Positions 1,654 through 44,828 of a DNA stretch of 45,858 nt are shown here, piece after piece. Below the pieces are notes generated by a model that was not told the DNA's origin, searched no databases, and saw only the letters and a program-made list of their open reading frames with translations. A program made the translations under genes and the position numbers. Origin of the DNA: a bacterium (GTDB lineage Bacteria; Patescibacteriota; Saccharimonadia; Saccharimonadales; Saccharimonadaceae); contig JAUIGH010000002.1 in the NCBI GenBank assembly GCA_030429935.1, positions 1 to 45,858 on the forward strand, given 5' to 3'. Within the stretch, counting starts at the first letter, position 1. Every line of letters starts with the position of its first letter.

Positions 1654-1677
1654 CATAACCGCTATCATGTAGATAGT

Positions 1678-2610
1678 ATGAAAAAGCAGACTCGAACTCC
1701 CTGGCGAGCACCGCTGATTGTTTCGTTGATTACTGTCGGGTTATTTGCACTCGGATGGTGGTTAGTCGACGATCTGTATATGCCGGTGCTGCAGCCGAGT
1801 GGCGCGATCGCTGATCAGCAGCTCACGCTTTTGATTTTTACGGTAGTATTATCAGCCGTAGTGGTGCTACCGGTGTTTGTCATGCTAGTGGTGTTTGCGC
1901 TGCGTTACCGCGAAGGCAACACTCGCGCCAAATACACGCCGGAGTGGTCCGAAAACAAATGGTTGGAACTAGTGTGGTGGGGGATTCCGATCGCGATTAT
2001 CGTCGTGCTCAGTGTGGTGACGTACTTGACCAGTCATTCGCTCGATCCGTACCGCGCAATCGAGTCTGACAATCAAACGCTCGAGGTTCAAGTCGTAGCG
2101 CTGCAGTGGAAGTGGTTGTTTATCTATCCGGAGCTTGGAGTCGCGACGGTCAATGATCTGGTGATTCCGGTCGATAGGCCGGTGCATTTTAGTCTCAGCG
2201 CTGATGCACCGATGAGTGCGTTTTGGGTGCCAGCGCTAGGCAGTCAGATATATAGCATGAATTCGATGAGTAGTCAGCTCAATCTGATCGCTGACGAAGC
2301 CGGTACATTTCAGGGCTACAACACCAACATCAACGGTGAGGGGTATGCCGAGATGACCTTTGAGGTTAATGCGGTTCCTGACGAAGAATTCGCGGCCTGG
2401 AGCGAAGAGCGTAGCGAGAGCGGACACGTGCTTGACCGTGCGCACTACGCAGAACTAGCTCAACCGAGCACGATGCCAGATCCGATGTACATGCGGCTAG
2501 CGGACACAGAGTTGTATCAATATATCGTCATGAAAAACATGATGAACCATAGCGCAGACGACAGTGATTCTGCTACCATGGATGCGATGCAACATGGGGG
2601 AGCGCACTAG
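1678..2610 (+). CDS. cyoA: Cytochrome o ubiquinol oxidase subunit II
   Basis: Two N-terminal TMs, then a cupredoxin domain with quinol-oxidase-type FWVPALGSQIYSMNSMSSQL and no CuA cysteines; directly followed by cyoB. Confidence 0.93.
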   Translation: MKKQTRTPWRAPLIVSLITVGLFALGWWLVDDLYMPVLQPSGAIADQQLTLLIFTVVLSAVVVLPVFVMLVVFALRYREGNTRAKYTPEWSENKWLELVWWGIPIAIIVVLSVVTYLTSHSLDPYRAIESDNQTLEVQVVALQWKWLFIYPELGVATVNDLVIPVDRPVHFSLSADAPMSAFWVPALGSQIYSMNSMSSQLNLIADEAGTFQGYNTNINGEGYAEMTFEVNAVPDEEFAAWSEERSESGHVLDRAHYAELAQPSTMPDPMYMRLADTELYQYIVMKNMMNHSADDSDSATMDAMQHGGAH

Positions 2611-4593
2611 ATGGAGTGGCTGATCGGACGACTGAGTCTGGAGTATTTGCCGACTGATCCGGCGACGATTGGTGCTGCCATCGGTATGCCGCTGGGCGCG
2701 CTGGTTGTGGCTGGCTTATTGACGTACTACAAAAAATGGACGTGGCTGTGGAAGAATTGGCTGACTAGTCTCGATGCCAAAAAAATCGGCGTGATGTACA
2801 TCGTCGTGGCGCTGTTGATGCTGATTCGCGGCGTAGCCGATGCCTTCATGGTGCGCTCCCACACCGCGATGGTCGGTGTCGACGGCGAGGGATTGTTCGA
2901 TGCTGATATGTTCCAACAAGTCTTTACGGCGCACGGTACGATCATGATTTTCTTTGTCGCCATGGGATTGATGTTTGGCTTGATAAACGTCGTGTTGCCG
3001 CTGATGATTGGCGCCCGTGATGTAGCCTTTCCGTGGCTGAACTCGGTGAGCTTTTGGCTGTTTTTTGCTGGCATGATTTTGAACAATATCGCCCTAGTGA
3101 TTGGCGGATTTAGCAGCGCTGGTTGGCTGGGCTATCCACCGCTGACTGGCCTGGAGTATAGTCCAGGGCCGGGCGTTGACTATTGGATCTGGAGTTTGCA
3201 AATCGCAGGTGTTGGTAGTCTTTTGTCTGGTATCAACTTCTTTGTGACGATTATCAAAAAGCGCGCGCCGGGCATGACGCTGATGAAGATGCCGATTTTT
3301 TCATGGAGTGTGCTCGTCACGACAGTGTTGATCATCATTTCGTTCCCGCTTCTGACGGCGACGTTGGCGCTGCTATCGCTGGATCGACTGATGGATATGA
3401 ATATCTTTACGTCGTATCTGGGCGGCAATCCGATGCTGTATGTAAATCTGATATGGGCTTGGGGGCATCCGGAAGTCTACATATTGGTATTGCCAGCGTT
3501 TGGTATCTATAGCGAGATCGTGGCGACGTTTGCTCGTAAAAAACTATTTGGTTACGCGACGATGGTGGCTGCATTGGTTGCGATCATGTTCCTGAGTTTC
3601 CTCGTCTGGTTACACCACTTCTTTACGATGGGGGCTGGTGCCAATGTCAACGCGTTCTTTGGCATCATGACGATGGTGATTGCTATACCGACAGGTGTCA
3701 AAATATTCAACTGGCTGTTTACGATGTATCGTGGGCAAATTCGATTCACTAGCCCGTTCATTTGGTTCTTGTGTTTCGTGTTTACCTTTACTATCGGTGG
3801 TGTGACAGGCGTGATGATGGCAGTGCCAGCGCTGGATTACCAGGTGCACAATACGTTATTCCTGGTGGCGCATTTCCATAATACGATTATCGGCGGCGTA
3901 GTATTCGGCTTTATGGCAGGGATCACGTATTGGTTCCCAAAGATATTTGGATTTAGGCTCAACGAACGACTCGGTAAATATGCTGCGTATCTATGGCAGC
4001 TCGGATTTATCGTCGCTTTTGCGCCGCTGTATACACTGGGATTAATGGGCGCGGTCAGGCGACTCGACACCTATGATGATCCGACGTGGACACCGCTATT
4101 TATCGTTAGCGGCATCGGTGTGATGATCATCGGCGCAGGTATCGCACTGCAAGTGCTGCAATTTGTCGTCAGCATCTGGCAGCGCAAGCAAAATCTCGAC
4201 ACGACCGGTGATCCGTGGGACGGTCGTACGCTCGAGTGGAGCGTGCCGAGCCCAGCGCCAGAGTACAATTTCGCGATTACGCCGACGGTATCGCGTCGTG
4301 ACGAATGGTGGTATGCCAAACAAGAAACTATCAGGCGGCCGCACAAATCAGAATATGTTGATATCCACTTGCCTCAGAACAACTCGATGGGATTGTATAT
4401 CGGCCTGGCATCACTCGTCGCTGGGTTTGCTATCGTCTGGCATATGTGGTGGCTGGTCATACTCTGTGTCGTGGCGATCATAGCGATGGTGATTATGCGT
4501 ACGATGGACGACAATACTGAGTTTACGATTACTGGCGAGGAGCTGTTTGAGCTGGACAGTAAACGATTTACCGCAGGAAAGGCCAAAGCATGA
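2611..4593 (+). CDS. cyoB: Cytochrome o ubiquinol oxidase subunit I
   Basis: HPEVYILVLPAFGIYSEI, WLHHFFTMG, VAHFHNTIIGG and IGARDVAFPWLN motifs of heme-copper oxidases. Confidence 0.97.
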   Translation: MEWLIGRLSLEYLPTDPATIGAAIGMPLGALVVAGLLTYYKKWTWLWKNWLTSLDAKKIGVMYIVVALLMLIRGVADAFMVRSHTAMVGVDGEGLFDADMFQQVFTAHGTIMIFFVAMGLMFGLINVVLPLMIGARDVAFPWLNSVSFWLFFAGMILNNIALVIGGFSSAGWLGYPPLTGLEYSPGPGVDYWIWSLQIAGVGSLLSGINFFVTIIKKRAPGMTLMKMPIFSWSVLVTTVLIIISFPLLTATLALLSLDRLMDMNIFTSYLGGNPMLYVNLIWAWGHPEVYILVLPAFGIYSEIVATFARKKLFGYATMVAALVAIMFLSFLVWLHHFFTMGAGANVNAFFGIMTMVIAIPTGVKIFNWLFTMYRGQIRFTSPFIWFLCFVFTFTIGGVTGVMMAVPALDYQVHNTLFLVAHFHNTIIGGVVFGFMAGITYWFPKIFGFRLNERLGKYAAYLWQLGFIVAFAPLYTLGLMGAVRRLDTYDDPTWTPLFIVSGIGVMIIGAGIALQVLQFVVSIWQRKQNLDTTGDPWDGRTLEWSVPSPAPEYNFAITPTVSRRDEWWYAKQETIRRPHKSEYVDIHLPQNNSMGLYIGLASLVAGFAIVWHMWWLVILCVVAIIAMVIMRTMDDNTEFTITGEELFELDSKRFTAGKAKA

Positions 4594-5171
4594 GTGCGCA
4601 CGTGATGGGTGAACGGGAATCGACAGCACGATTCGGCTTTTGGCTATACCTGTTGAGCGATGTGATGATATTTGGCGCTTTGTTCGCGACATTTATGATA
4701 TTGCGCGGCGGTACGGCCGGTGGGCCGACAGACGCCGACATCATCGAGCCATTTCCGGTGCTATTGCAGACACTGGCGCTGCTGGCGAGTAGCTTCACAG
4801 TTGCTGTCGCCGTACTAGCGGCGCGGGCAGGCAAGTTGCAGACCATGAAACTGTACCTGTGGGCGACATTCCTGCTTGGTGCAACATTCTTGGGACTAGA
4901 ACTTGCGGAGTTTATCAATCTAGTAGGCGAGGGGCATAGCTGGCGTGAAAGTGCATTTCTATCGAGTTTCTTTGCACTGGTCGGCACACACGGACTACAT
5001 ATCACGATCGGTCTATTGTGGCTGGTGGTGTGGCTAGCGTACTACCAAAAACGCGGCATGAATGACGGCATGCAACGACGCCTCGGACTGTTTGCATTGT
5101 TCTGGCATTTCCTCGACATCATCTGGATCTGGCTGTTTACCATAGTCTATATGTTTGGAGTTGGTGTATGA
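4590..5171 (+). CDS. cyoC: Cytochrome o ubiquinol oxidase subunit III
   Basis: ATGA overlap with cyoB; FGFWLYLLSDVMIFGALFATFMILRGGTAGGPT; five-TM pattern. Confidence 0.95.
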   Translation: MSAHVMGERESTARFGFWLYLLSDVMIFGALFATFMILRGGTAGGPTDADIIEPFPVLLQTLALLASSFTVAVAVLAARAGKLQTMKLYLWATFLLGATFLGLELAEFINLVGEGHSWRESAFLSSFFALVGTHGLHITIGLLWLVVWLAYYQKRGMNDGMQRRLGLFALFWHFLDIIWIWLFTIVYMFGVGV

Positions 5172-5530
5172 GTGAGTCGGCTTACAAAAAAGCCCTGTAT
5201 CGGTATTGCGGTGGCTTTATCGCTGCCTTGGTACTGGTGTACGCGATGTACTTTACGACGGTCAATGGTTGGCTGAGTGGTGCGCCGCTGGCAGCGCTGT
5301 TGCTGGGGTTGGCTCTGGTGCAATTTGGAGTGCAGATGGTCGTGTTTTTGCACGTTTTTGACGAGGCCAAGCCGCGCTGGACACTGTGGAGTATCATCTA
5401 CAGCTTTGTGATGTTGCTGATCATCGTCCTGGCTAGCCTGTGGATCATGGCGAATCTCAACTACAACATGCATATGACACCAGAGCAGATGGAACAGTAC
5501 ATGCTCGAGCAAAATAAAAAAGGTTTTTAG
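5168..5530 (+). CDS. cyoD: Cytochrome o ubiquinol oxidase subunit IV
   Basis: ATGA overlap with cyoC; three TMs; QFGVQMVVFLHVFDEAKPRW resembles CyoD. Confidence 0.9.
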   Translation: MSESAYKKALYRYCGGFIAALVLVYAMYFTTVNGWLSGAPLAALLLGLALVQFGVQMVVFLHVFDEAKPRWTLWSIIYSFVMLLIIVLASLWIMANLNYNMHMTPEQMEQYMLEQNKKGF

Positions 5531-5542
5531 TTCAAAACTGGC

Positions 5543-6403
5543 ATGGTCGGTATTCGAGCACTGTACCTGCTGGCCAAACCTGGCATTGTGTATGGAAATG
5601 CCTGGCACACGATCGGCGGCGTGCTACTGGCGGCATCTACGGCCTGGTCACTATCTGCTGCGATTGGTGTGATGATAGGTGTAGTTTCGATCGTGGCATC
5701 AGCCTGCGTCATCAATAATCTCATCGATCAACCATACGATGCCAAGATGCAGCGCACCAAACGCCGGCCGAGTGTGACGGGACAGGTACTAACTAGCGTC
5801 GCGGTACTGTATGCGATCATTCTGGCGCTGATTGGTTTCGTGGCATTATGGCTTTTGACAAACCCACTGACGATACTACTGGGATCGATTGCCTACGTCA
5901 GCTACACCGTTGTATACACATATAGTAAACGATTTACCCTACACAGCACGTTGATCGGTACGGTACCTGGCGCACTACCGGCTATGGCTGGCTACACGGC
6001 ACTCGTCGGTCAACTGGACGCGACAGCCTGGCTGATTGGCCTCGTGATTGCCTGCTGGCAGTTGCCGCATTTTTATGCCATCAGCGTGTCTCGTGCCAAA
6101 GAGTATGCTGCGGCAGGATTTCCGGTGCTGTCGACGAGGCATTCACCTGTCGTGGTTAAGCGGTGGATTGTAGCGACGCTCGGGTTATTTTTTGTCGTTG
6201 TTAGCATATTCGCCTTCACGCAACTCGCTCTACTGGCTGGGATCATATATGTCGTGCTGGCTGGTGGTTGGTTGATGCGCAGTGCGCTAGCAACGGGCCG
6301 TGATGCCGCCTGGGCGCGCCGGGTATTTGGCGATTCGATGTACGTCAGTCTCGGATTTGTGGCTGTTGCGGCGCTCGATTTGGTACAGCGTAGCCTGATG
6401 TAG
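5543..6403 (+). CDS. cyoE: Protoheme IX farnesyltransferase (heme O synthase)
   Basis: UbiA-type motifs NNLIDQPYDAKMQRTKRRP and YTYSKRFTLHSTLIGTVPGALPAMAGY; operon position after cyoD. Confidence 0.93.
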   Translation: MVGIRALYLLAKPGIVYGNAWHTIGGVLLAASTAWSLSAAIGVMIGVVSIVASACVINNLIDQPYDAKMQRTKRRPSVTGQVLTSVAVLYAIILALIGFVALWLLTNPLTILLGSIAYVSYTVVYTYSKRFTLHSTLIGTVPGALPAMAGYTALVGQLDATAWLIGLVIACWQLPHFYAISVSRAKEYAAAGFPVLSTRHSPVVVKRWIVATLGLFFVVVSIFAFTQLALLAGIIYVVLAGGWLMRSALATGRDAAWARRVFGDSMYVSLGFVAVAALDLVQRSLM

Positions 6404-6445
6404 TATGCTGTTGGCAGATACTTAGCATAAACAGAAACGAGCGAC

Positions 6446-7654
6446 ATGAACTACACCATCATCGGCGGCGGGTTTGCAGGCGTGAAAACAGCCTTGGAGC
6501 TCGCCAAGGATCCCAAGAATGCTATCCAGCTGATCAGTGATACCGATACGTTCCAGTATTATCCGACGCTGTATAGTTCGGCGACCGGCAGAAGCCATCT
6601 TGAATCATGGGTGCCGCTGGGTGAGATATTTGCTGAGCACGATAACATCCATGTATCGATCGACCGTATTATTGGTATAGACGCTGAGCACAAAGAAGTC
6701 GTCGGTGCGACTGAAGCACGCTACAGCTACAAAACGCTCGTTATCGCCGTCGGGTCAGTCACGACGTACTTTGGTATCCCGGGCATGGATCAATATTCGT
6801 ACGGCATCAAATCATACGATGAGATTCGCCGTCTGAAAGAACGGATCTACGCCGATCTATCGGGTCAGAAGAAACTCGACAAAAACTACGTCGTCATTGG
6901 TGGTGGACCGACCGGGGTCGAGCTAGCTGGTGCGCTCGGCGCTTATCTGGAAAAATTGAGCGAGTATCATGACGTCAAACGCCCGCACGTTAACGTGCGT
7001 CTGATCGAAGCAGCACCGCGACTATTGCCGCGCTCGCACGAAAAATTGTCAGCTCGGGTGCAGAAGCGATTGGCACGTCTGGGTGTCGAAGTTCAAACCG
7101 ACACCATGGTCGAAAAAGCCACCGCTGAATCGGTCATCGCGGGCGGTCGCCCGATCGCCAGTCATACGGTGATTTGGACATCTGGCGTGGCCAATAATCC
7201 ACTGTTTGCCGCCCATCCGGATATTTTTCGACTGAATCCACGTGGCAAAGTTGTCGTCGATAATCACTTGCGTGCGCACAAAAACATCTATGTATTGGGT
7301 GACAACGCTGATACGCCGTTTAGTGGCTTGGCGCAGGTGGCACTGCATGATGCCAAATTCTTTGCCAGTAATATGAAGCGCAAAAAACAGCGTAAACCAC
7401 TGAAAAGCTACGCGATTTCGAGTCCGCCGACCGTCGTACCAGTTGGTGATCGCTGGGCGGCGTTCGAGTGGGGTTGGCTACGGTTTTATGGCTGGCCAGC
7501 AGCACTACTGCGACGCTGCGCGGACTTTATTGGCTATAGCGATATCTTGCCGTTTGGCCAAGCGCTCCGGCCGTGGCATGCCTCGACGATCGAAGAGCGT
7601 GATTATTTCACACCGACGCCAAAATCACATCGAAAATCTGGCTCCAAACGCTAG
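6446..7654 (+). CDS. ndh: Type II NADH dehydrogenase-like FAD/NAD(P) oxidoreductase
   Basis: N-terminal GGGFAGVKTALELA, second GGGPTGVELAGALG and YVLGDNADTPFSGLAQVALHDAKF motifs. Confidence 0.85.
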   Translation: MNYTIIGGGFAGVKTALELAKDPKNAIQLISDTDTFQYYPTLYSSATGRSHLESWVPLGEIFAEHDNIHVSIDRIIGIDAEHKEVVGATEARYSYKTLVIAVGSVTTYFGIPGMDQYSYGIKSYDEIRRLKERIYADLSGQKKLDKNYVVIGGGPTGVELAGALGAYLEKLSEYHDVKRPHVNVRLIEAAPRLLPRSHEKLSARVQKRLARLGVEVQTDTMVEKATAESVIAGGRPIASHTVIWTSGVANNPLFAAHPDIFRLNPRGKVVVDNHLRAHKNIYVLGDNADTPFSGLAQVALHDAKFFASNMKRKKQRKPLKSYAISSPPTVVPVGDRWAAFEWGWLRFYGWPAALLRRCADFIGYSDILPFGQALRPWHASTIEERDYFTPTPKSHRKSGSKR

Positions 7655-7707
7655 GGATAGCGCCTGATACCTGCTATACTACACTGTAGATTAACGAGAG
7701 AGGGAAC

Positions 7708-8280
7708 ATGGCAACACCAACACATCAACGTGTGATTATTATCATCTTGGCTGTCGTAATGCTGATCGGTACGATTGGTTCGTTTGCGGTCTTGGTATTG
7801 GCGAATGAAAACCAGGACATCGATCAACAGCGCGCCGAAGAACAGTATCAGCAGCAGATCGAAGACTTTCAAAAACAACAAGCCGAAGAACGCAAAAATA
7901 ACCGACCGCTCGACGGCTACAGTGCTGAGGCCTTTGACGCAGATAGCGTCGAGGAACTGTCGGTCGAAGTGCTCAAAGAGGGCGACGGTGCGACGATCTC
8001 GAGCGATTCGACCATCAAAGCAAACTATTTCGGCTGGCAAGCTGATGGCACGATATTTGACAGTACCAAGAAAGTCGATAGTGACGCAGAGCCGATCGAG
8101 TTTTCACTAGCACAAGTCATCGAAGGTTGGACAAACGGGCTCGATGAGCAGCGCGTAGGCAGCATCGTGCGATTGACGATCCCGGCCGATCAGGCCTATG
8201 GCAACGAAGACACTGGATTTGGTCAACCGACTGGTCCGCTCAAATTTATCGTTGAAATTACAGAATTGGTGACGGAGTAA
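7708..8280 (+). CDS. Membrane-anchored FKBP-type peptidyl-prolyl isomerase
   Basis: N-terminal TM, then FKBP-like segment GTIFDSTKKVD...VIEGWTNGLDEQRVGSIVRLTIPADQAYG; SD GAGAGAGGG before ATG. Confidence 0.8.
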   Translation: MATPTHQRVIIIILAVVMLIGTIGSFAVLVLANENQDIDQQRAEEQYQQQIEDFQKQQAEERKNNRPLDGYSAEAFDADSVEELSVEVLKEGDGATISSDSTIKANYFGWQADGTIFDSTKKVDSDAEPIEFSLAQVIEGWTNGLDEQRVGSIVRLTIPADQAYGNEDTGFGQPTGPLKFIVEITELVTE

Positions 8281-8282
8281 GT

Positions 8283-9233
8283 ATGTCGGATATCACAGAT
8301 ACAATCATGATTGGTGCCGGGCCGAGTGCACTGGCGGCAGCAGTCTACACGACCCGTGAAGATATCGGTACGGTATTGTATGAAAAAGGCGTCGTCGGTG
8401 GCCTCGCTGCTATCACCGATCAAGTCGACAACTATCCTGGCTTTCCAGATGGCGTCGAAGGTATGAAATTGGCCGAGCAGTTAGAGGCGCAGGCTAAACG
8501 ATTCGGCGCTGACATCCAGTACGGCGATGTCTCAGCCATCACGCGCGACGACGACGTTCTGACCGTGACTGTCGACGGCAAACCCGTACAGGCCAAGACC
8601 GTCTTGATTGCCACTGGCAGCGACTACAACAAAATCAACGTGCCGGGTGAAGCCGAGTACTACGGACGCGGCGTGCACTATTGTGCGACCTGTGACGGTG
8701 CGTTTTATCGTGAAAAAAAACTGGCCGTCGTCGGCGGCGGTAATTCGGGTGTCCAGGAAACGATATTTCTGACACGCTTTGCCAGTCACATCGACTTACT
8801 AGTGCGCAGCACTATCAAAGCTAGCGAAGTCTTGCAGCAAGAACTACAGCAATACATCGACAGCGGTCAAGTCACCGTGCATTTGGACACCACCGTCCGA
8901 GAAATCCAGGCGACCGATGGCAAAGTTGATCGCGTGCTGCTCGATAGCAATGGCGAAGCAAACGAGCTCGACGTCGATGGCGTCTTTGTATTTGTCGGAC
9001 TCAAGCCAAACACGCAAATCCTCGACGGCAGCGGTGTCGAACTCGACTCGATGGGCCTCATCAAAACCGACAACAAGCTGATGACCAACATCGAAGGCGT
9101 GTTCGCCAGCGGAGATGTCCGCAGCGGTGCAACCATGCAGATCGCCAGTGCCGTCGGCGAAGGCGCGACTGCCGCACTGAGCATCCGCGAGTATCTCGAC
9201 GAACATAAGCGATCGAGCGCACAACCTGCCTGA
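8283..9233 (+). CDS. trxB: Thioredoxin reductase family protein
   Basis: IGAGPSALAAAVYTTRE, CATCDGAFYREKKLAVVGGGNSGVQE (CxxC) and VFASGDVRSGATMQIASAVGEGATAA. Confidence 0.92.
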   Translation: MSDITDTIMIGAGPSALAAAVYTTREDIGTVLYEKGVVGGLAAITDQVDNYPGFPDGVEGMKLAEQLEAQAKRFGADIQYGDVSAITRDDDVLTVTVDGKPVQAKTVLIATGSDYNKINVPGEAEYYGRGVHYCATCDGAFYREKKLAVVGGGNSGVQETIFLTRFASHIDLLVRSTIKASEVLQQELQQYIDSGQVTVHLDTTVREIQATDGKVDRVLLDSNGEANELDVDGVFVFVGLKPNTQILDGSGVELDSMGLIKTDNKLMTNIEGVFASGDVRSGATMQIASAVGEGATAALSIREYLDEHKRSSAQPA

Positions 9234-9244
9234 GAGTAGTAGTA

Positions 9245-9934
9245 TCAATCAGCTAGCGACGCTATGATGCGGTCTGGGTAGCTGGTGACGACGCCGTCGT
9301 AGCCGTGATCGCGTAACAGCGCGGCGGCTTGTGGGCGATTGACGGTATAGCAAAAGGTAAATATCTCGGCTTTTTTCGCAATTTGATGCGCTAGTTGATT
9401 GGTGTGCAACCGATGAAAACCGACAGCCGTCAGGTTGAGCGCCCGATGGTAGGCGATATAGGCAAACGGGTTGTTGTCGTGCAACAACGCCAGCGGCGCT
9501 TGGTTGCTGATTTTTCGTACAGCAAACAGATCGCCGGCCTTGTACGACGCCAGGATGACATTATCCCAGTGTTTTTGTGTATTGCCACACCGATCGGCCA
9601 GTAGTTTGGCGACTGCTTCGGCGCTGCCACGACTGCGCAGTTCGATCAGCAATAACACTTTGCCGAAATATTTGTCTAAGACTGTTTCGAGCGATGGAAT
9701 CGGCTGATCGCCGGTCAGTTTTGCTAATTCAGCGTCACGCAACTGCGTTAGCGATGTGTCGATGCTGTGCGTGCGTTTTAGGCTAGGGTCATGATGGAGC
9801 ACTGGCGTGCCGTCCCGCGTCAGGCGAACGTCGATGTGCAAGATGTCGCAGCCAGCCTGTCGTCCAGCTTGCAGGGCTTGCAGCGTGTTTTCATCGGCCA
9901 ATCCAGCCGCCCCGCGTTTTCCGATCACTAACAT
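9245..9934 (-). CDS. Glycerophosphodiester phosphodiesterase family protein (start trimmed from ORF track)
   Basis: MLVIGKRGAAGLADENT..HIDVRLTRDGTPVLHHDPSLKRT: GDPD catalytic signature. Confidence 0.85.
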   Translation of the reverse strand: MLVIGKRGAAGLADENTLQALQAGRQAGCDILHIDVRLTRDGTPVLHHDPSLKRTHSIDTSLTQLRDAELAKLTGDQPIPSLETVLDKYFGKVLLLIELRSRGSAEAVAKLLADRCGNTQKHWDNVILASYKAGDLFAVRKISNQAPLALLHDNNPFAYIAYHRALNLTAVGFHRLHTNQLAHQIAKKAEIFTFCYTVNRPQAAALLRDHGYDGVVTSYPDRIIASLAD

Positions 9935-9947
9935 GAGGTGTATTGTC

Positions 9948-10946: not shown

Positions 10947-10953
10947 GGTGTTT

Positions 10954-10959
10954 AGTATA
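10954..10959 (-). promoter_or_regulatory. -10 element of the PLD-family gene, predicted leaderless
   Basis: Minus-strand TATACT, 7 nt, ATG at 10946. Confidence 0.6.
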
Positions 10960-11016
10960 CTAACGGTGGTACAATAACGCCAGATAGCCAAACCTAGCGA
11001 GAGGAGTGATAAAGAC

Positions 11017-11541: not shown

Positions 11542-11549
11542 CGCGTAGC

Positions 11550-13079: not shown

Positions 13080-13085
13080 ATATCT

Positions 13086-13091
13086 AGTATA
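13086..13091 (-). promoter_or_regulatory. -10 element of rel, predicted leaderless
   Basis: Minus-strand TATACT, 6 nt, ATG at 13079. Confidence 0.6.
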
Positions 13092-13160
13092 CCTTTTGCA
13101 ATAATTCACACCACCCGCTACAATCTATAGCCAATAGCATAAGCACATAGAATCAGAGGA

Positions 13161-14183: not shown

Positions 14184-14223
14184 AAAAAGCCCAACTAGGC
14201 TACATAAAAAATTCATGAGCTGC

Positions 14224-14247
14224 GGGCGGGGGATGAATCCCCCGCCC
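14224..14247. terminator. Perfect GC-rich hairpin between convergent gap and 14256-14606(-) genes
   Basis: GGGCGGGGGA-TGAA-TCCCCCGCCC, 10-bp stem, 4-nt loop; no clear U-tract on either side. Confidence 0.55.
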
Positions 14248-14255
14248 GATGCACC

Positions 14256-14606: not shown

Positions 14607-14623
14607 TTTCTGACCTGCTTTCT

Positions 14624-14670
14624 GAGGTGCGCTTTCGGCACCTCGATCGATGATTCGAGAGGTCTCTCGA
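14624..14670 (-). promoter_or_regulatory. Structured 5' leader: two adjacent hairpins upstream of 14256-14606(-)
   Basis: On the minus strand TCGAGAG-AC-CTCTCGA (14670-14655), then GAGGTGC-CGAAAGC-GCACCTC (14644-14624). Confidence 0.6.
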
Positions 14671-14682
14671 AAGCTGACTATT

Positions 14683-14736: not shown

Positions 14737-14765
14737 TTTACAGATGTCACCAACTCGCTTATACT
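14737..14765 (+). promoter_or_regulatory. Promoter of rpiB with predicted leaderless start
   Basis: TTTACA (14737-14742), 17-nt spacer, TATACT (14760-14765), 7 nt, ATG at 14773. Confidence 0.65.
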
Positions 14766-15887: not shown

Positions 15888-15893
15888 TATCAT
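15888..15893 (+). promoter_or_regulatory. -10 element of transketolase operon, predicted leaderless
   Basis: TATCAT, 6 nt, ATG at 15900. Confidence 0.5.
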
Positions 15894-21954: not shown

Positions 21955-21998
21955 TTGCCACTAGTGTAGCATAAGCAGCATAAATCGTCAGCCTCAGG

Positions 21999-22004
21999 TA
22001 TACT
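21999..22004 (+). promoter_or_regulatory. -10 element of uvrB, predicted leaderless
   Basis: TATACT, 7 nt, ATG at 22012. Confidence 0.6.
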
Positions 22005-24958: not shown

Positions 24959-24995
24959 TCGAAAAAATCGCAAATATTTGCTACTCTAGAAGTAG

Positions 24996-30625: not shown

Positions 30626-30631
30626 TATACT
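30626..30631 (+). promoter_or_regulatory. -10 element of DUF5665-like gene, predicted leaderless
   Basis: TATACT, 6 nt, ATG at 30638. Confidence 0.6.
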
Positions 30632-30925: not shown

Positions 30926-30973
30926 ATTTTACGACAGACAAGCGTGGGCGGATTCGCTATACTAGGTGATGAT

Positions 30974-35126: not shown

Positions 35127-35182
35127 AGCTCCGATTGTACCACTACATAAACCATGAGCGATTTGCTATAGTAGGCGAGTAT

Positions 35183-36811: not shown

Positions 36812-36820
36812 GTGCCCGTC

Positions 36821-37225
36821 CTATTGACGCCAGGGTTTGAAATTCGCGTGGATGTATTCACCGATTCTTCGATTTAAACCTAGTTGTGCGCGTGCTGGTG
36901 GACAGAGAGCGCTTAGTTTCGATGCCAGTTCGTAGGTGATAAAATCGGGGTTAGCATTAATGAAATCAACATTCGCAACCACACTTTTATCAGCACTATA
37001 GTTAAGTACCACATAATCCACATCAGTAACACCGGACGTAGACAATGCTTTTGCGGCGAGTACGACGTCGGTCCTGTGCAGATTGAAACACTGGAACTCT
37101 CCTGTCAGTTGGCGTGCTTCGCATGCATCGTGAGACATGAGTTTTGGGCCGTGACGCTGGGTTAATTGGCCAGTATTAGTATCTATGCCATAGGCAGTTT
37201 GCAATTCTAGTACCGGAAGGCTCAT
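36821..37225 (-). CDS. Hypothetical protein
   Basis: 134-aa ORF filling the gap between pilB and malic enzyme; TATCAT 7 nt upstream of ATG on the minus strand. Confidence 0.6.
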   Translation of the reverse strand: MSLPVLELQTAYGIDTNTGQLTQRHGPKLMSHDACEARQLTGEFQCFNLHRTDVVLAAKALSTSGVTDVDYVVLNYSADKSVVANVDFINANPDFITYELASKLSALCPPARAQLGLNRRIGEYIHANFKPWRQ

Positions 37226-37263
37226 AAAGCCGATGATACAACTTTATACATAAAAATCAACAA

Positions 37264-38397
37264 CTACTTGATAGATGAGGATACAACCGGAACAATGCGT
37301 TCGTCAAATGGTGACGGGATGATTTCGTCGGGAGTTGGATTTTCGACCAGGCTGGCGAGGGCTTCGGCGGCAGCAAGTTTGTGGTCGTCAGTAATCTTGG
37401 CGACGCCATTATCGAGTGCGCCTCGGAAAATGCCAGGAAAGGCTAGGGCGTTGTTGACTTGATTCGGCAAGTCGCTGCGGCCGGTAGCCAGCACGGCGAC
37501 GCCAGCTTGCGTGGCAACGTCTGGCATGATTTCTGGTATGGGATTTGCTAGGCCAAATACGATCGGTTCTGGCGCCATCGTCGCGACGAGTTCGGGTGTC
37601 AACAAGCCGGCTTTTGAGACGCCGATGAAGATGTCGGCGCCTGCGATGGCGTCATCCATGCTGCCGCTGTGGCTCGAATCAACATAGTCGAGCAGCATTT
37701 GCTTTTCGGTGTTTAGGTCGGTTCGGTCGTCACTCAGGATGCCTTTGCTGTCGACGGCGACCATGTTGGTGCAGCCGTATTTGTAGAGGAGTTTGGCGAT
37801 CGCCGTACCGGCTGCTCCAGCTCCGATGATGACGATTTTTGCGCTGCGCAGATCGCGGTTGGTGACTTTTGCGGCGTTGATCAGACCGGCCAGCGTCACT
37901 ATCGCAGTACCGTGCTGGTCGTCGTGAAAGACCGGGATGTCGAGCTCGGCTTTGAGGCGTTCTTCGACCTCGAAACATTTCGGTGCGGCGATGTCTTCGA
38001 GGTTGATCGCACCGAAACTTGGCGCCATCGCTTTGACGGTAGCGACGATTTCATCGGCTGAGTGCACGTCCAGAACGATCGGCACGCTGTCGATGTCGGC
38101 GAAGTGTTTGAAGAGCAAGGCTTTGCCTTCCATAACTGGCATCGCGGCTCTCGGCCCTAGATCACCGAGGCCGAGGATCGCCGATCCATCAGAGATGACG
38201 GCGACGAGATTGTTTGTCCAGGTATATTTCGGCAGGTCTTCGGGTGATTCGGCGATGGCGCGACTGACCGCACCGACCCCTGGGCTGTAGTAAGCGCTCA
38301 GTTTATCACGGTCCAGCTCATCGGTGTCGCGGAGCTTAGTGGTGATTTTACCACCGTAATTTTTGTGCAATTCTAATGCGAGTTTATTGTAATCCAT
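37264..38397 (-). CDS. NAD(P)-dependent malic enzyme
   Basis: YYSPGVGAVSRAIAE, GDLGPRAAMPVMEGKALLFKHFADID, VFHDDQHGTAIVTLAGLINAAKV. Start trimmed to MDYNKLALELHKNY. Confidence 0.94.
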   Translation of the reverse strand: MDYNKLALELHKNYGGKITTKLRDTDELDRDKLSAYYSPGVGAVSRAIAESPEDLPKYTWTNNLVAVISDGSAILGLGDLGPRAAMPVMEGKALLFKHFADIDSVPIVLDVHSADEIVATVKAMAPSFGAINLEDIAAPKCFEVEERLKAELDIPVFHDDQHGTAIVTLAGLINAAKVTNRDLRSAKIVIIGAGAAGTAIAKLLYKYGCTNMVAVDSKGILSDDRTDLNTEKQMLLDYVDSSHSGSMDDAIAGADIFIGVSKAGLLTPELVATMAPEPIVFGLANPIPEIMPDVATQAGVAVLATGRSDLPNQVNNALAFPGIFRGALDNGVAKITDDHKLAAAEALASLVENPTPDEIIPSPFDERIVPVVSSSIK

Positions 38398-38403
38398 AAT
38401 TAC

Positions 38404-38409
38404 ACTATA
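38404..38409 (-). promoter_or_regulatory. -10 element of malic enzyme, predicted leaderless
   Basis: Minus-strand TATAGT, 6 nt, ATG at 38397. Confidence 0.55.
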
Positions 38410-38436
38410 CGGTATGTGTGTGCTAGAGTGAACGGT

Positions 38437-38985
38437 ATGCAACTAAAAGAAGCACAGGTAGCAAGTTTTGTGGCGCTAGCTGTATTGAGTGGCTGCTCAA
38501 GTGATCGTGAACCAGCTGTAGACATGGATACGGAGCCTACTGCCGTGAGTGATGTAGCAGAGTACGACACATATCTTGTCGGCCCTTACGCTGTCGAAAC
38601 AAGTGACACTAAGATTGTCCGGCCGATTCCAGAGGTAGACCTAGGACGTGTGGATCACTGCGAGCCAGGCACAAGATACACGTTTGATGAATCTGTCATC
38701 GAAAGTTTAACTGGCTATGATCCTGAGGCGGGTAAAGAGGTGTCAATCAATCCTAGAGATATAAAACTGATAACCAGCATAGGCCAGACATCCACCATAA
38801 CAGTGTTCGACTGTATTGGATTCCGTTCTGAAGACGGCGATAAATACGTTGAAAACCGTCCGGTTGAAGGCAAATTACCCGAAGGATGGAAGCTAACTGG
38901 CCTGGTTCTGCCTGATAATGTTTCGAGTGGACAAGCTCTAGAGGTAAGTCCGACTTCGCGCTACGACGATTTGATACAGCCGTAA
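38437..38985 (+). CDS. Putative lipoprotein, unknown function
   Basis: Signal-peptide-like N-terminus ending in lipobox LSGC (FVALAVLSGCSSD). Confidence 0.65.
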   Translation: MQLKEAQVASFVALAVLSGCSSDREPAVDMDTEPTAVSDVAEYDTYLVGPYAVETSDTKIVRPIPEVDLGRVDHCEPGTRYTFDESVIESLTGYDPEAGKEVSINPRDIKLITSIGQTSTITVFDCIGFRSEDGDKYVENRPVEGKLPEGWKLTGLVLPDNVSSGQALEVSPTSRYDDLIQP

Positions 38986-39056
38986 CACTTTCAATTGCTC
39001 GCTATATCTGCTATAATCAAGCATTGATTGTTAATAACAGCTTTTAGAGGTGAGAA

Positions 39057-39581
39057 ATGAGTTTTGCACTAGTCCAAAAGGTCAATGACCAGCAAAAGAA
39101 AAAAGAAGTCGTCGACGCACGTAGCGGCGACACGGTTCGCGTATACCAAAAAATCCGCGAAGGCAACAAAGAACGTATCCAGATGTTCGAGGGTGTCGTC
39201 ATCCGTACCGACAACAAAGGTCAGCACACCAGCCGCATCACGGTTCGTAAAGTCGCCAGCGGCGTCGGTGTCGAGAAATCATTCTTGCTACACAGCCCGC
39301 TCGTCGAACGCGTTGAAGTCGTCCGCCGTGCCAAGGTTCGCCGCAACTTCCTGAGTTACTTGCGTCAGCGCAGTGGTAAGTCTGCTCGTCTGACTGCCGT
39401 CGACTTTGACCGCAAAGCTGTCAACGATGTACACGATGCAAAAGCCGAAGCTGAAGCTGAACGCCTGAAAGAAGAAGCCGCCAAAGCCGCTGAAGCCAAG
39501 CAGGCCGAAGCTGACAAAGCGCAAGCTGAACTCGAAGCCAAGCAAAAAGCTGTCGAAGACGCGCATAAAGACAACGCGTAG
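39057..39581 (+). CDS. rplS: 50S ribosomal protein L19 with ~57-aa charged C-terminal extension
   Basis: GDTVRVYQKIREGNKERIQMFEGVVIRT, SFLLHSPLVERVEVVRRAKVRRNFLSYLRQRSGKSAR; SD AGAGGTGAG. Confidence 0.95.
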   Translation: MSFALVQKVNDQQKKKEVVDARSGDTVRVYQKIREGNKERIQMFEGVVIRTDNKGQHTSRITVRKVASGVGVEKSFLLHSPLVERVEVVRRAKVRRNFLSYLRQRSGKSARLTAVDFDRKAVNDVHDAKAEAEAERLKEEAAKAAEAKQAEADKAQAELEAKQKAVEDAHKDNA

Positions 39582-39607
39582 CTATCTAAACTCGGTAAAG
39601 AGTAAAT

Positions 39608-39632
39608 AACCCGCTCTAGCCGCGGGTTTTTT
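39608..39632 (+). terminator. Terminator downstream of rplS
   Basis: AACCCGC-TCTAGCC-GCGGGTT followed by TTTT; the stop codon of the convergent minus-strand gene lies in the loop. Confidence 0.8.
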
Positions 39633-39858
39633 GCTGCTTATGCATATTTATGCACGCCACGACAAATAGGCCAAAGCTAAGCAAGAACAGCGGCAAGGTT
39701 ATGTATAGTGCGATCCGAATTGATGATCCGAGAGTATTCCAGCCTGAGCTGGTAGAATCGATCGGCCAATACGGCCAATCCTCAGCGAACCATTGTGAGA
39801 GCACGCACAGGATGAAAAGTATGGCGGCTGCGATGAATTGATTTCTTGGTCTGTTCAT
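39616..39858 (-). CDS. Small two-TM hypothetical membrane protein
   Basis: Two hydrophobic segments; TATAAT 8 nt upstream of ATG on the minus strand. Confidence 0.65.
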   Translation of the reverse strand: MNRPRNQFIAAAILFILCVLSQWFAEDWPYWPIDSTSSGWNTLGSSIRIALYITLPLFLLSFGLFVVACINMHKQQKTRG

Positions 39859-39866
39859 ACAGCGCG

Positions 39867-39872
39867 ATTATA
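39867..39872 (-). promoter_or_regulatory. -10 element of 39616-39858(-), predicted leaderless
   Basis: Minus-strand TATAAT, 8 nt, ATG at 39858. Confidence 0.6.
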
Positions 39873-39885
39873 GCACGGCACGCGG

Positions 39886-39891
39886 TATACT
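39886..39891 (+). promoter_or_regulatory. -10 element of rnhB-yraN, predicted leaderless
   Basis: TATACT, 6 nt, ATG at 39898. Confidence 0.6.
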
Positions 39892-39897
39892 AGCAGT

Positions 39898-40854
39898 ATG
39901 ATTCTCGGCATCGATGAAGTTGGACGTGGTGCGTGGGCGGGGCCGTTGGTGGTCGGCGCCGTGGTGTTGGGCGATGCTCGCATCGATGGTCTGACAGATA
40001 GTAAGGTGCTGTGCAGGAACCGGCGAGAGGAGTACTCAAAGCTGATCCACGAGCATGCGGCAGCGATAGGACTAGGCTGGGTGAGTGCCGAGGAGATCGA
40101 TGAGATCGGTCTGGGCGCTGCACTACGACTGGCTACCAAACGTGCCGTGCAGGAAGTGCAACGACAGCATGTCGAGTTTCACGAGATTATTATCGATGGA
40201 ACGATCAATTTTCTGAGCGACACGCCTTTGGCGGACTACGTGACGACGATGAAGAAAGCCGATTTGTTGATCGCTAGTGTTTCTGCAGCCTCAATCGTCG
40301 CCAAAGTCGCTCGCGATGAGTTTATGTATGAGCGAGCCGATGAGTTTGTGGAATACGGCTTCGTAGATCATGTCGGCTACGGCACTGCCAAGCACCGTAC
40401 AGCCATCGACCAGCATGGCGTCACGCCACTGCACCGGCTGAGCATCGCTCCGCTACAGAAATATGCATCGACGCAGAAAACGGTGATCGAACCGGTAGCC
40501 ACGCAACCGACCACTCGTGATATCGGCAACGCTAGCGAGACCGCCGCGGCTGAATATCTTCAGTCACGCGGTTATGAAATTATTGATCGCAACTGGCGCA
40601 CCAAGTTTTGCGAAATAGACATCGTCGCCCGAAAAGACGACGTCTACTACTTCGTCGAGGTCAAACATCGCAAAAATGCCGATTCCGGCGACGGACTGGC
40701 CGCAATCACACCTAAGAAGTTAGCGCAGATGAAAAAAGCTGCTGAGCTGTACGGTGTAATGAATACCCCGAATGAAATCGAAATGCAGCTTGCTGTGATA
40801 GCAACTCAGGGCGAAAGTAGCGCCGTAATCACTCGAATAGAGTTTGTGGCATAA
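39898..40854 (+). CDS. rnhB: RNase HII-YraN (UPF0102) fusion protein
   Basis: N-terminal GIDEVGRGAWAGPLVVGAVVL (RNase HII); C-terminal GNASETAAAEYLQSRGYEIIDRNWRTKFCEIDIVARKDDVYYFVEVKHRKNADSGDGLAAITPKKLAQM (YraN) in one frame. Confidence 0.92.
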   Translation: MILGIDEVGRGAWAGPLVVGAVVLGDARIDGLTDSKVLCRNRREEYSKLIHEHAAAIGLGWVSAEEIDEIGLGAALRLATKRAVQEVQRQHVEFHEIIIDGTINFLSDTPLADYVTTMKKADLLIASVSAASIVAKVARDEFMYERADEFVEYGFVDHVGYGTAKHRTAIDQHGVTPLHRLSIAPLQKYASTQKTVIEPVATQPTTRDIGNASETAAAEYLQSRGYEIIDRNWRTKFCEIDIVARKDDVYYFVEVKHRKNADSGDGLAAITPKKLAQMKKAAELYGVMNTPNEIEMQLAVIATQGESSAVITRIEFVA

Positions 40855-40863
40855 CTTGAGACG

Positions 40864-41541
40864 TCAGCTATTTGCTGGTTGCTGTTTGATGTACTGCACA
40901 GCACGCTTGAGCAGTGATGCAGCTTCGCGTAGGGCGCTTAGTTCGGCGTCAGTAAGTGGCGGACTGTTGTCTATGTGAACGTAGCCTATGTCTAGTGGGG
41001 AGTACGGTTCGGCCGATGCGGCACTTCTTGTTTTCCTGCGTCCACTATCCCACGCACCACTGGCTTCATCGAAGGAACTGGAAGAGTAACCTCTTGTGAG
41101 AAGATCTCCAGTGTCGGATTCGGCGCGAAGTGTTATAGAGAATTCGCGAACCACGGCGATGTGGTCAGCAGTTTGTTGATGCGTATCTAGGTTGTATCCA
41201 CAGACGTTCAAAACATTTTGCATGAGCCTAAGACTTGCGGATGTACGGTGATCGGGGGTAGCTGCGTACAGCGCTTCATAGCGCCTGCCAGGGGGCAAAT
41301 CGGCTCCTTGCCTAATCGGCCGGATCAAACCATCTTTTGCCCACGAGAGCACGCCTGTGAAGTCGCCAACATCAACTGATACGTCAGATGTGGGCCAACC
41401 TTTGTTATCGCGATTGAACACGTGCTCGAGCTGCGGCCTGGTATCAATGAAAAAATCTTCAGCTAGTTTGAAAGGCTTGGAATCCTTAGGAGTATATGAC
41501 AAAAGACTTGGTACATCGAGTGGATAAGAGTCTGTAGACAT
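40864..41541 (-). CDS. Hypothetical protein
   Basis: 225-aa ORF occupying the interval between rnhB-yraN and pepN; TACAGT 6 nt upstream of ATG on the minus strand. Confidence 0.65.
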   Translation of the reverse strand: MSTDSYPLDVPSLLSYTPKDSKPFKLAEDFFIDTRPQLEHVFNRDNKGWPTSDVSVDVGDFTGVLSWAKDGLIRPIRQGADLPPGRRYEALYAATPDHRTSASLRLMQNVLNVCGYNLDTHQQTADHIAVVREFSITLRAESDTGDLLTRGYSSSSFDEASGAWDSGRRKTRSAASAEPYSPLDIGYVHIDNSPPLTDAELSALREAASLLKRAVQYIKQQPANS

Positions 41542-41597
41542 GCCATGACTGTAGATGGGGCGGATGAATAAAGCAAGCGTAAGCGGCCGGCGATCGG

Positions 41598-44087
41598 TTA
41601 CAGCTTTTCGCGGACTTCGTCACCGTCACGTTCGAGAACTTGGAGTCGGGCGTCTATCTCGCGTAGGCCTAGATCGATGACGCGGGTCAAGGCAGGTTGG
41701 TCGCGCAGTGGCGTGAAGAATTGCTGGTATTCGTCGCGTTGCTCGTGTGTCATCAGGCCGGTGGCGGCGTAGCGTGGGAAGTAGTCGTAACTTTTGTCGC
41801 CGCCGAACGTTCGCTCGATCCAGTCCCAGTTGTCTTGCATCCATTGCCAGGTCGCCGCGCGGGCGTGGCGGTTGCGAATCAGGTAGACGAACCAACGGGC
41901 GGTGTCTTGGCTACGCACGACGTCGGTGTCGGTCAGCTGCTGCAGTACATAGTCGATTTGATCCGGTTGACGGGCGCTGGTCAAACCACTGACCAGGTCG
42001 TCGCGCAGATCGGCTGATGGCGTGCTGGTGTGTAGGTCGAGCAAGTCGCGAATGACCTGCATGTCATCGGAGCGGTACACGACACTCGAAACTACGAGCG
42101 CGCGGAGTTCTGGATCAATCGATTCGACGCCAGCCTGGTAGAGCTGATCAACATGCGATAGCACTTCCGCGTCCTGGCTATAGACCATAAATCCGAGAAT
42201 TGTCGAACGTAATTTCGTGTCGCTTTCTGGCTCCCCGACTGTTGGGTTCCAACCGAGGCGCGTGTATTGATCGCGGGCGAGCTCGCCAGCAAATTCGCGC
42301 AGCTTAGCTTCAGTTGCGTCGTCAGTCTCGACAAATTTTTTCAGCTCGGCAAATGCCAGAGATATGATATCCCAGACATGCTCTGATGTCGTGTCGGTAA
42401 AGTGCGGCAGCAGATCGATCAATGACGCACTACTGGCATGACCGCCCCGGATCAATAGAGTTTGTTCGTGCAGTAACTGTAGTCGATCGAGGTCGTTCAA
42501 ATCATCGCGCGCGACGATTCGCTGTAGATGTTCGGACGTGTAGCGAGTGATGAAATGTGCCGTATCGCCGACATTCAATCGCTCGTCATCAGATATTGGC
42601 ATGCGTAGTTCGTGGGTGTCCAGCAGCTCAGGGACGTCCTCGTCACTCTCAGCTCGCAGCGGAATCGGCCATAGCTGTGAGGACTCGCTATGTTCGCCGA
42701 TGTAGAACTGCTGTTGCTGTAATCCGTTTACATCGATGGACACCATCGGATAGCCGGATTGCGAGATCCAGGTGTTCATGAAATCAGTAATGTCCTTGCC
42801 GCTGGCGTCGGACAGGTGGCGCCACAAATCATTGGCTTCGGTGTTGCGGTAGGCGAACTCGGTGAAATAACTTTGCAAGCCACGCTGAAACGCTTCGTCA
42901 CCGATATAGGCTTGGCACATGCGCATCAGGCGGGCGCCTTTTGCGTAGACGATCGCGCCGTCAAAGAGGCTGGAGATTTCGTCTGGGTGATTGACGTCGA
43001 CTTGGACGGACTGCACGCCGTCGATCGCATCACGACGCAGTGCCAGGATGCTCTCTTGGGTGGCAAAATCCAACCAGGCGTTCCACTCGGGGTGGATGGC
43101 ATCGACGGCGATGTATTCCATCAGTGTTGCAAAGCTTTCATTGAGCCACAGGTTGTTCCACCAGTTCATCGTCACCAGGTTGCCAAACCATTGGTGGCTG
43201 AGCTCGTGACTGATGACGGTAGCGATATACTGGCGGCTAGCGATGGTAGTTGTGGCGGGGTCGGCCAGTAGAGCGATTTCGCGGTAGGTAATCAGTCCCC
43301 AGTTTTCCATAGCGCCACTGCTAAAGTCTGGCAGTGCAACGTGGTCGGATTTGGGCAACGGATACGGCGTGCCGAAATAGTCATCGAAAAACTCGATCGA
43401 GCGCACGGCATGATCGAGCGCGAAATCCAGACTATCGGCTGATTGCGCCGGTGTGGCGTAGACATTGACCTCGACGCCACCTGCCGTATGAGCGCTCTTT
43501 TTTTGCAGATCACCGTACACCCAGGCCAGCAAATAGGTGCTCATGCGCGGTGTAGTGCCGAATGTCGTCACCAGCCGGTTATTTTCAACGCGTTGATCGG
43601 TCGGGTGTAGGTTGCCCAGTACGGTGATGTCGGGTTCGGTGGTCAGCGTGACGTCGAACGTAGCTTTGGCGGCCGGCTCGTCGATACACGGAAAGACTTC
43701 GCGGGCGTGATGGCTCTCGAATTGGGTGGCGATGAGCTCTTTGGCTTCACCGTCATGCATGAATTTGCAAGGATACATGCCGTGAGTAGCATCAGTGATG
43801 TGGCCGCTAAATCCAATAACGATCAGGTGTTTGCCGGGCGCCAGATCGTCGTGAGTGATCCATAGGGTGTCATCAGCTGCTTCTTGGTACTGAGCGGCTT
43901 TGCCGTCGAACACCACGGTCTCTATTTGCAGGTCTTTGGCGTGCACGCCGATACGTTCTGCTCCGGCAGCACTGATGCCGTGGATGGTGACCGTACCAGT
44001 GAACTGGCGGCCGGGCCGATCGATGTCGAGCGATAGTTGATAATTTTCTGGTTGGAAGTGGTCGAGGAGTTGAGTAAAAGTAGTCAT
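41598..44087 (-). CDS. pepN: M1 family zinc aminopeptidase
   Basis: GAMENWGLITYRE and HELSHQWFGNLVTMNWWNNLWLNESFATLMEY (HExxH-x18-E). Confidence 0.95.
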   Translation of the reverse strand: MTTFTQLLDHFQPENYQLSLDIDRPGRQFTGTVTIHGISAAGAERIGVHAKDLQIETVVFDGKAAQYQEAADDTLWITHDDLAPGKHLIVIGFSGHITDATHGMYPCKFMHDGEAKELIATQFESHHAREVFPCIDEPAAKATFDVTLTTEPDITVLGNLHPTDQRVENNRLVTTFGTTPRMSTYLLAWVYGDLQKKSAHTAGGVEVNVYATPAQSADSLDFALDHAVRSIEFFDDYFGTPYPLPKSDHVALPDFSSGAMENWGLITYREIALLADPATTTIASRQYIATVISHELSHQWFGNLVTMNWWNNLWLNESFATLMEYIAVDAIHPEWNAWLDFATQESILALRRDAIDGVQSVQVDVNHPDEISSLFDGAIVYAKGARLMRMCQAYIGDEAFQRGLQSYFTEFAYRNTEANDLWRHLSDASGKDITDFMNTWISQSGYPMVSIDVNGLQQQQFYIGEHSESSQLWPIPLRAESDEDVPELLDTHELRMPISDDERLNVGDTAHFITRYTSEHLQRIVARDDLNDLDRLQLLHEQTLLIRGGHASSASLIDLLPHFTDTTSEHVWDIISLAFAELKKFVETDDATEAKLREFAGELARDQYTRLGWNPTVGEPESDTKLRSTILGFMVYSQDAEVLSHVDQLYQAGVESIDPELRALVVSSVVYRSDDMQVIRDLLDLHTSTPSADLRDDLVSGLTSARQPDQIDYVLQQLTDTDVVRSQDTARWFVYLIRNRHARAATWQWMQDNWDWIERTFGGDKSYDYFPRYAATGLMTHEQRDEYQQFFTPLRDQPALTRVIDLGLREIDARLQVLERDGDEVREKL

Positions 44088-44095
44088 TACACTCC

Positions 44096-44105
44096 ATTGT
44101 ACAAT
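44096..44105. promoter_or_regulatory. Palindromic bidirectional -10 element shared by pepN(-) and HNH(+)
   Basis: ATTGTACAAT gives TACAAT on both strands, 8 nt from the pepN ATG and 9 nt from the HNH ATG. Confidence 0.6.
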
Positions 44106-44114
44106 AGGCTCTAC

Positions 44115-44828
44115 ATGAGTCGCTACCGCCGTCGTCGAATCATCGCTTGGTGTGTGCTGCTAACAGTCGCAGCACTACTGCTGTTCGTAAATCCGGATAA
44201 TTATGCTAACGAGCAATCGCCACCAGTCGACACCTCGACAACCGAACCGGCGATCGTGCCAGGCGATGCCCAGGCGACGCTCGAGCTACTGACTGTCAAA
44301 GGCCGGGCTGCCAAAACTGGCTACGACAGAGATCAATTCGGTGCTGGCTGGGGTTTAATCCAAGGCTGTTCGGTGCGCGACGCGATATTGCAGCGTGATC
44401 TGGTCGAGACGGTCGTCGACGCGCAATGCCGCGTGGTCAGTGGGGTACTGGATGATCCGTATACGGCACGTTCGATTCGCTTTGTTCGCGGGCCGACGAC
44501 TAGCGATGCGGTGCAGATCGATCACGTAGTGGCACTATCAGACGCCTGGCAAAAAGGCGCGCAGCAGTTGTCGTACGAGCGGCGGGTTGAATTTGCCAAC
44601 GACCCACTTGAGCTGCTGGCTGTCGACGGTGATGCCAATGAACAAAAATCAAATGGCGATGCCGCCACCTGGCTGCCGAGCAATAAATCATTTCGCTGCC
44701 AATACGTCGCGCGCCAGATCGCCATCAAATACAAGTACGCACTATGGGTGACGGCAGCCGAAAGAGACGCCATGGTCCGGGTGCTCGGCACGTGTCCAGG
44801 GCAGCAACTGCCTCGCGGCAGCGCTTGA
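44115..44828 (+). CDS. Membrane-anchored or secreted HNH-family nuclease (DUF1524/GmrSD-like)
   Basis: N-terminal TM/signal anchor, then VQIDHVVALSDAWQKGAQQL...FANDPLELLAVDGDANEQKSNGDAATWLP. Confidence 0.85.
   Translation: MSRYRRRRIIAWCVLLTVAALLLFVNPDNYANEQSPPVDTSTTEPAIVPGDAQATLELLTVKGRAAKTGYDRDQFGAGWGLIQGCSVRDAILQRDLVETVVDAQCRVVSGVLDDPYTARSIRFVRGPTTSDAVQIDHVVALSDAWQKGAQQLSYERRVEFANDPLELLAVDGDANEQKSNGDAATWLPSNKSFRCQYVARQIAIKYKYALWVTAAERDAMVRVLGTCPGQQLPRGSA

Follow-up and report, generated by a model that had tools for sequence, protein, structure and literature searches.

Predicted leaderless gene starts behind extended -10 promoters in a genome of the Saccharimonadaceae

Transcription without a leader is established for genes of Actinobacteria and of Deinococcus-Thermus (PMC3160421, PMC12340547), and according to a survey cited in PMC9581028 about one bacterial species in five is predicted to have leaderless genes. 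The subject of the present work is a TATACT-like hexamer that ends 6-10 nucleotides (nt) before the start codon of 19 genes in a 45,858-nt stretch of DNA (the window; contig JAUIGH010000002.1, assembly GCA_030429935.1) from a bacterium of the Saccharimonadaceae in the phylum Patescibacteriota. The named sequences nearest to its uvrB belong to Candidatus Saccharibacteria, which makes the bacterium a Saccharibacterium. The likeness to Deinococcus-Thermus is close, since in that group a TANNNT hexamer ends approx. 6-7 nt before the start of the leaderless genes and genes with a Shine-Dalgarno (SD) sequence coexist with them (PMC12340547, PMC3160421). In contrast to that group, the boxes found here are mostly TATACT or TATAAT with an extended TGn, they belong to a reduced genome of 52% G+C from a different phylum, and the start codon is nearly always ATG in this genome, though GTG occurs in relatives. 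With the Actinobacteria (Mycobacterium, Streptomyces) the common features are a box near the start, a high share of the genes and the mixture with SD genes (PMC3160421). In the open literature, subscription papers and bioRxiv being outside the scope, no report of leaderless genes was found for Saccharibacteria or other Patescibacteria. The leaderless mode itself is known; its predicted occurrence in Saccharibacteria would be new. The usual hosts of the cultured Saccharibacteria are Actinobacteria, but neither descent nor transfer is indicated here.

We consider it about 90% probable that the genes carrying such a box are transcribed from extended -10 promoters in leaderless or near-leaderless form (0-3 nt), beside genes that initiate at an SD. 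In the proposed mechanism a sigma-70-type extended -10 element (TGnTATAMT-like) would start the RNA on the start codon's A or no more than about 3 nt ahead of it, the resulting mRNA would be leaderless or nearly so and would be translated without an SD, while the operon-internal genes would start by an SD or by stop-start overlap. The box position, its promoter-like make-up, the bias towards operon heads and the conservation were observed here.

All the 19 combinations of hexamer, gap and start codon listed in an earlier note on the window were correct to the letter (Table 1). The accompanying statement, that no SD lies between the hexamer and the start, does not hold for trmH (CGGAGCT) and pepN (GGAGTGTA), where a GGAG tetramer lies between the two, at a distance from the ATG of 2 nt and 4 nt, respectively; the tetramers are not found in the congener. 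When the starts were picked blind to the upstream sequence and the expectation was taken from windows further upstream, a hexamer at gap 6-10 preceded 12 of 46 genes in the window, against 2.9 expected (p = 1.7e-5). The start chosen from the coding signal alone disagrees with the listed one for cyoA, rpiB, LOG, dnaE, pilB, 39858 and HNH; the listed starts of LOG, pilB and rpiB agree with the orthologues.

In order to follow the signal through the genome (a draft of 66 contigs, 823 kb, 88% complete, of which the window is contig 50; G+C 51.7% over the sequence rebuilt from stretches), 861 genes were called with a codon-pair model blind to the upstream sequence, the starts being taken from the coding signal only. 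The gap is the number of nt between the end of the hexamer and the start codon; boxes were defined as TANNNT, and TATAMT was used for raw counts. SD sequences were scored in called genes only, because the GGAG frequent within codons made counts independent of gene calls too noisy. Alignment of the upstream regions, which the earlier note had named as a check able to refute its proposal, instead supported it clearly, with a strong enrichment of TANNNT over internal ATGs: at gap 6 it was present in 21.2% of the divergent genes, 7.8% of the co-directional genes with an intergenic gap of at least 40 nt and 4.8% of the tightly packed genes vs 0.6% of the internal ATGs. The background upstream of the divergent genes is 2-4% per position, and at gap 5 the value is 2.7%. 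The raw counts of TATAMT followed by ATG, which require no gene calls, were 5, 16, 3, 4, 7, 5, 55, 35, 39, 20 and 19 for gaps 0-10, and no peak like that of ATG was seen in these counts with GTG, TTG or the reversed codon.

After background correction, a box at gap 6-9 was present in approx. 32% of the divergent genes, in 12% and 32% of the co-directional genes with intergenic gaps of at least 40 nt and of 16-39 nt, respectively, and in 8% of the tightly packed ones. Thus the signal, which had been called pervasive, is genome-wide and far beyond chance but is limited to these shares. The SD sequence follows the opposite trend (51% of the tightly packed vs 22% of the divergent genes), and among the head genes it was found in 4 of the 143 that carry a box vs 139 of the 401 that do not. 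The suggestion that two initiation modes coexist, a -10 box at operon heads and SD within operons, is borne out by these values.

The make-up of the boxes and of their surroundings makes them look like sigma-70 extended -10 promoters, mostly without a recognisable -35 element, with a consensus of about TGnTATAMT. The extended TGn stands directly 5' of the hexamer in 48% of the box genes vs 6% at other positions, and a weak TTG peak appears upstream at a spacer of 17-18 nt (17 of 164 box genes, about 2 per spacer elsewhere). The genome encodes one protein with sigma-70 region 2 (Sigma70_r2 match, 88 bits, open frame of 363 residues); IF3 is encoded as well, and a single open frame of 364 residues contains four S1 domains. 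A pyrimidine occupies position -1 in 89% of the gap-6 genes vs 62% of the genes without a box (p = 3e-6). The sharp edge at gap 6 together with this pyrimidine would place the transcription start at the A of the ATG; this start site, and ribosome initiation directly at a 5'-terminal AUG, are predictions from the sequence. The start codon is ATG in 159 of 164 box genes vs 505 of 628. In mycobacterial leaderless genes both ATG and GTG are widely used; here, unlike in mycobacteria, there is no excess of GTG.

Comparison with other Saccharibacteria was possible for the listed genes except cyoA, DUF5665, 37225, 39858 and 41541, for which no usable orthologue was available; boxes at gap 5-10 were compared with control windows shifted by 20 nt. 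Pooled, 117 of 196 orthologues had the box vs 21 in the shifted windows, a total dominated by uvrB (47 of 116 without it), and 24 of the 196 had an SD. In ten control genes the box was found in 14 and the SD in 131 of 192 orthologues. At the uvrB loci a box lies 5-10 nt, mostly 6-8 nt, before ATG or GTG in 70 of 80 cases, and the remaining upstream bases have diverged around it. In the congener, 21 of the 30 genes predicted to be leaderless keep the box, only 7 of them with an identical gap; among the other genes it is present in 5 of 87. Since the box moves by 1-3 nt between species, identity to the congener position by position carried no information at gaps 7 and 8; judged from these alignments, it is the proximity to the start that is conserved and not the exact position of the box.

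Close divergent gene pairs with a box at both start codons number 46 in the genome vs 6 in the facing control; they cluster at 15-29 nt, and most of them are sequence matches only. Seven pairs have called genes on both sides (Table 1), with spacers of 11-32 nt, and in five of the seven the hexamers overlap. At the coordinates listed in the table the start codons are separated by 16-29 nt, and every start either has a -10 box to itself or shares one. Between pepN and the HNH gene the 27-nt spacer contains the near-palindromic -10 sequence ATTGTACAAT, and the congener keeps this arrangement with a spacer of 25 nt. With 15-32 nt between divergent genes neither transcript could have a leader within the spacer; leaders would require promoters located in the opposite genes. 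It may be that one symmetric -10 serves two divergent leaderless genes. Promoters that work in both directions from a symmetric -10 element are described in E. coli and other bacteria. They share with the present case a near-palindromic -10 that is read on either strand, and differ in that here the products would be two leaderless mRNAs of called genes whose start codons are 11-32 nt apart.

Some of the findings weigh against leaderless transcription as proposed. Gap 6 is the commonest, but gaps 8-10 make up 94 of the 222 assigned sites, and the placement of purines there fits leaders of 1-3 nt, not of zero: A is frequent 1-3 nt before the ATG, and its frequency at -3 at gaps 9-10 means that those messages would carry leaders of approx. 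3 nt. That box and SD almost never occur together is to some extent trivial, since an SD would need the space taken up by the hexamer. In addition, most orthologues of dnaE and tktN, and the only one of rnhB, have no box, which weakens these three calls. The placement of A at gaps 8-10 would also be expected if very short leaders of 1-5 nt were the main product, the box being a promoter and transcription starting a few bases before the AUG. The predominance of gap 6, however, and the -1 base of the gap-7 genes, which is still mostly a pyrimidine (71-76%), argue for a start on the A of the ATG, and we regard short leaders as the main product as unlikely.

It is highly improbable that the hexamer is a translation signal, that is, an A/U-rich non-SD ribosome site instead of a promoter. 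Such signals are known in Bacteroidetes, according to PMC9581028, and the hexamer does take the place of the SD and substitutes for it in the same genes; but it is found preferentially at operon heads and seldom before tightly packed operon genes, it is accompanied by the extended TGn and by TTG at the exact sigma-70 spacing, and it is symmetric between divergent genes. Moreover, mutation of the Deinococcus motif lowers the RNA, and a ribosome binding site put in its place abolishes expression (PMC12340547). If the boxes were real but secondary promoters, and the main transcripts began further upstream with leaders and SD sequences, these upstream transcripts would be without the usual ribosome site, because box genes rarely have an SD, both at the operon heads and among the orthologues. 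Nor is there space for them in the very short spacers of the divergent pairs. Judged by sequence, such an arrangement is possible for individual genes in longer intergenic regions; as a general explanation it is very unlikely. The chance occurrence of hexamers in A+T-rich intergenic DNA, aided by a convenient choice of starts, could draw on the background of 2-4% per position and on the fact that the starts of the earlier note were picked by eye. Since the excess persists with coding-only starts, in raw counts and against gap-shifted and reversed controls, chance is practically negligible, and the gap-shifted control, made within the same genomes, ruled out A+T-richness alone as the cause.

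The same code was applied to control genomes and to other Patescibacteria. The signal was present in D. radiodurans MP1 (15% vs 3%, p = 2e-4), where TATAMT is too rare for the raw count owing to the high G+C and a gene-anchored test was used, which worked; it was absent in 150 kb of E. coli (4% vs 9%). Breadth was measured as the counts at gap 6-8 vs gap 3-5 within each genome. A significant excess was found in 24 of 24 genomes of the family (pooled ratio 3.7), in 7 of 8 genomes from other families of the order and in 5 of 5 from other orders of the class. For the other classes of the phylum, 102 of 343 genomes were sampled (handles G001-G108), and the excess was significant in 56 of them, in 35 of 63 families. 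The ratio was at most 1.1 in 18 of these 102 genomes, so the trait is not universal in the phylum.

In families f36 (G340), f70 (G234), f121 (G338) and f122 (G257) TANNNT at gap 5-9 precedes 21-47% of the heads over a background of 4-18%, and the gene-anchored SD signal is little or none. No canonical 16S anti-SD tail within one mismatch was found in these four families in samples of 80-120 kb, taken from drafts that often have no 16S, and a 16S gene was likewise not found in the sampled DNA of these SD-poor lineages; the canonical tail was found in f53 and f61, and with a single mismatch in f85. These SD-poor lineages apparently without the tail are a lead only. In f121 (G255, G338, G297, G314) the counts at gap 3-5 are strongly above the reversed control and the peak of G338 is at gap 5-6, and the box of this family may sit 1-2 nt nearer to the start. 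In the f36 genome a match to a group I intron was also noted (L202:17210-17553, Rfam RF00028, 52 bits).

A separate observation concerns the 16S gene of the congener G380 (L168, contig 3, 56826-58300), in which about 27 nt are missing after GGTGCGG. The missing stretch is the entire anti-SD tail GGATTACCTCCTTTCTAGGGAG, present in other members of the family; it may be an assembly defect or a real loss, and the genes of G380 use SD strongly despite it. Because SD use in the congener is no weaker than in the others, its 16S without an anti-SD was set aside as a cause.

On these data, leaderless initiation could be widespread across Patescibacteria and the main recognisable mode in several lineages (four sampled), where the -10 box adjoins the start codon, SD use was detected scarcely or not at all and the search for a canonical 16S anti-SD tail gave no match; a spacer of 11-32 nt could serve two leaderless genes through one symmetric -10. 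We put forward this broader proposal tentatively, at somewhat less than even odds.

Table 1. Hexamers upstream of the listed start codons in the window, and divergent gene pairs with called genes on both sides
Feature	Position	Strand	Basis
TATCAT, gap 9, cyoA ATG 1678	1663..1668	+	sequence
TATACT, gap 7, PLD-like gene ATG 10946	10954..10959	-	congener orthologue has box at gap 9
TATACT, gap 6, rel ATG 13079	13086..13091	-	box in 7/8 orthologues
TATACT, gap 7, rpiB ATG 14773	14760..14765	+	box in 13/31 orthologues; shifted control 0
TATCAT, gap 6, tktN ATG 15900	15888..15893	+	box in 8/36 orthologues (weak)
TACACT, gap 8, LOG ATG 21954	21963..21968	-	box in 2/3 orthologues
TATACT, gap 7, uvrB ATG 22012	21999..22004	+	best supported: box in 70/80 orthologues; shifted control 7
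TACTCT, gap 8, gatC ATG 24996	24982..24987	+	box in 2/2 orthologues, gap 8 in both
TATACT, gap 6, DUF5665 gene ATG 30638	30626..30631	+	sequence
TATACT, gap 10, dnaE ATG 30974	30958..30963	+	box in 6/23 orthologues vs 5 shifted (weak)
TACAAT, gap 7, trmH ATG 35126	35134..35139	-	box in 3/4 orthologues
TATAGT, gap 10, pilB ATG 35183	35167..35172	+	box in 2/4 orthologues, with GTG; shifted control 3
TATCAT, gap 7, open reading frame ATG 37225	37233..37238	-	sequence
TATAGT, gap 6, malic enzyme ATG 38397	38404..38409	-	box in 1/1 orthologue
TATAAT, gap 8, open reading frame ATG 39858	39867..39872	-	sequence
TATACT, gap 6, rnhB-yraN ATG 39898	39886..39891	+	no box before single orthologue
TACAGT, gap 6, open reading frame ATG 41541	41548..41553	-	sequence
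TACAAT, gap 8, pepN ATG 44087	44096..44101	-	half of symmetric box ATTGTACAAT; kept in congener L192:2666
TACAAT, gap 9, HNH gene ATG 44115	44100..44105	+	other half of ATTGTACAAT; kept in congener L192:2692
Divergent pair pepN/HNH	44087-44115		called genes on both sides
Divergent pair	C17:437-461		called genes on both sides
Divergent pair	C28:13579-13602		called genes on both sides
Divergent pair	C54:2494-2524		called genes on both sides
Divergent pair	C58:15215-15245		called genes on both sides
Divergent pair	C60:11290-11315		called genes on both sides
Divergent pair	C66:2389-2406		called genes on both sides

Patescibacteria comprise a very large share of bacterial diversity and almost none of them is culturable. 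Since almost none can be grown, their gene starts must be read from DNA, and a dual start signal, with the box at operon heads and the SD inside operons, would correct the annotation of start codons. Start-prediction tools may already model the leaderless signal silently. In the design of genetic tools for these epibionts the promoter would be fused directly to the AUG. The genome would offer a testable case of leaderless translation beyond Actinobacteria and Deinococcus, and the lineages apparently without SD use would provide a natural test of whether a bacterium can manage mostly without SD.

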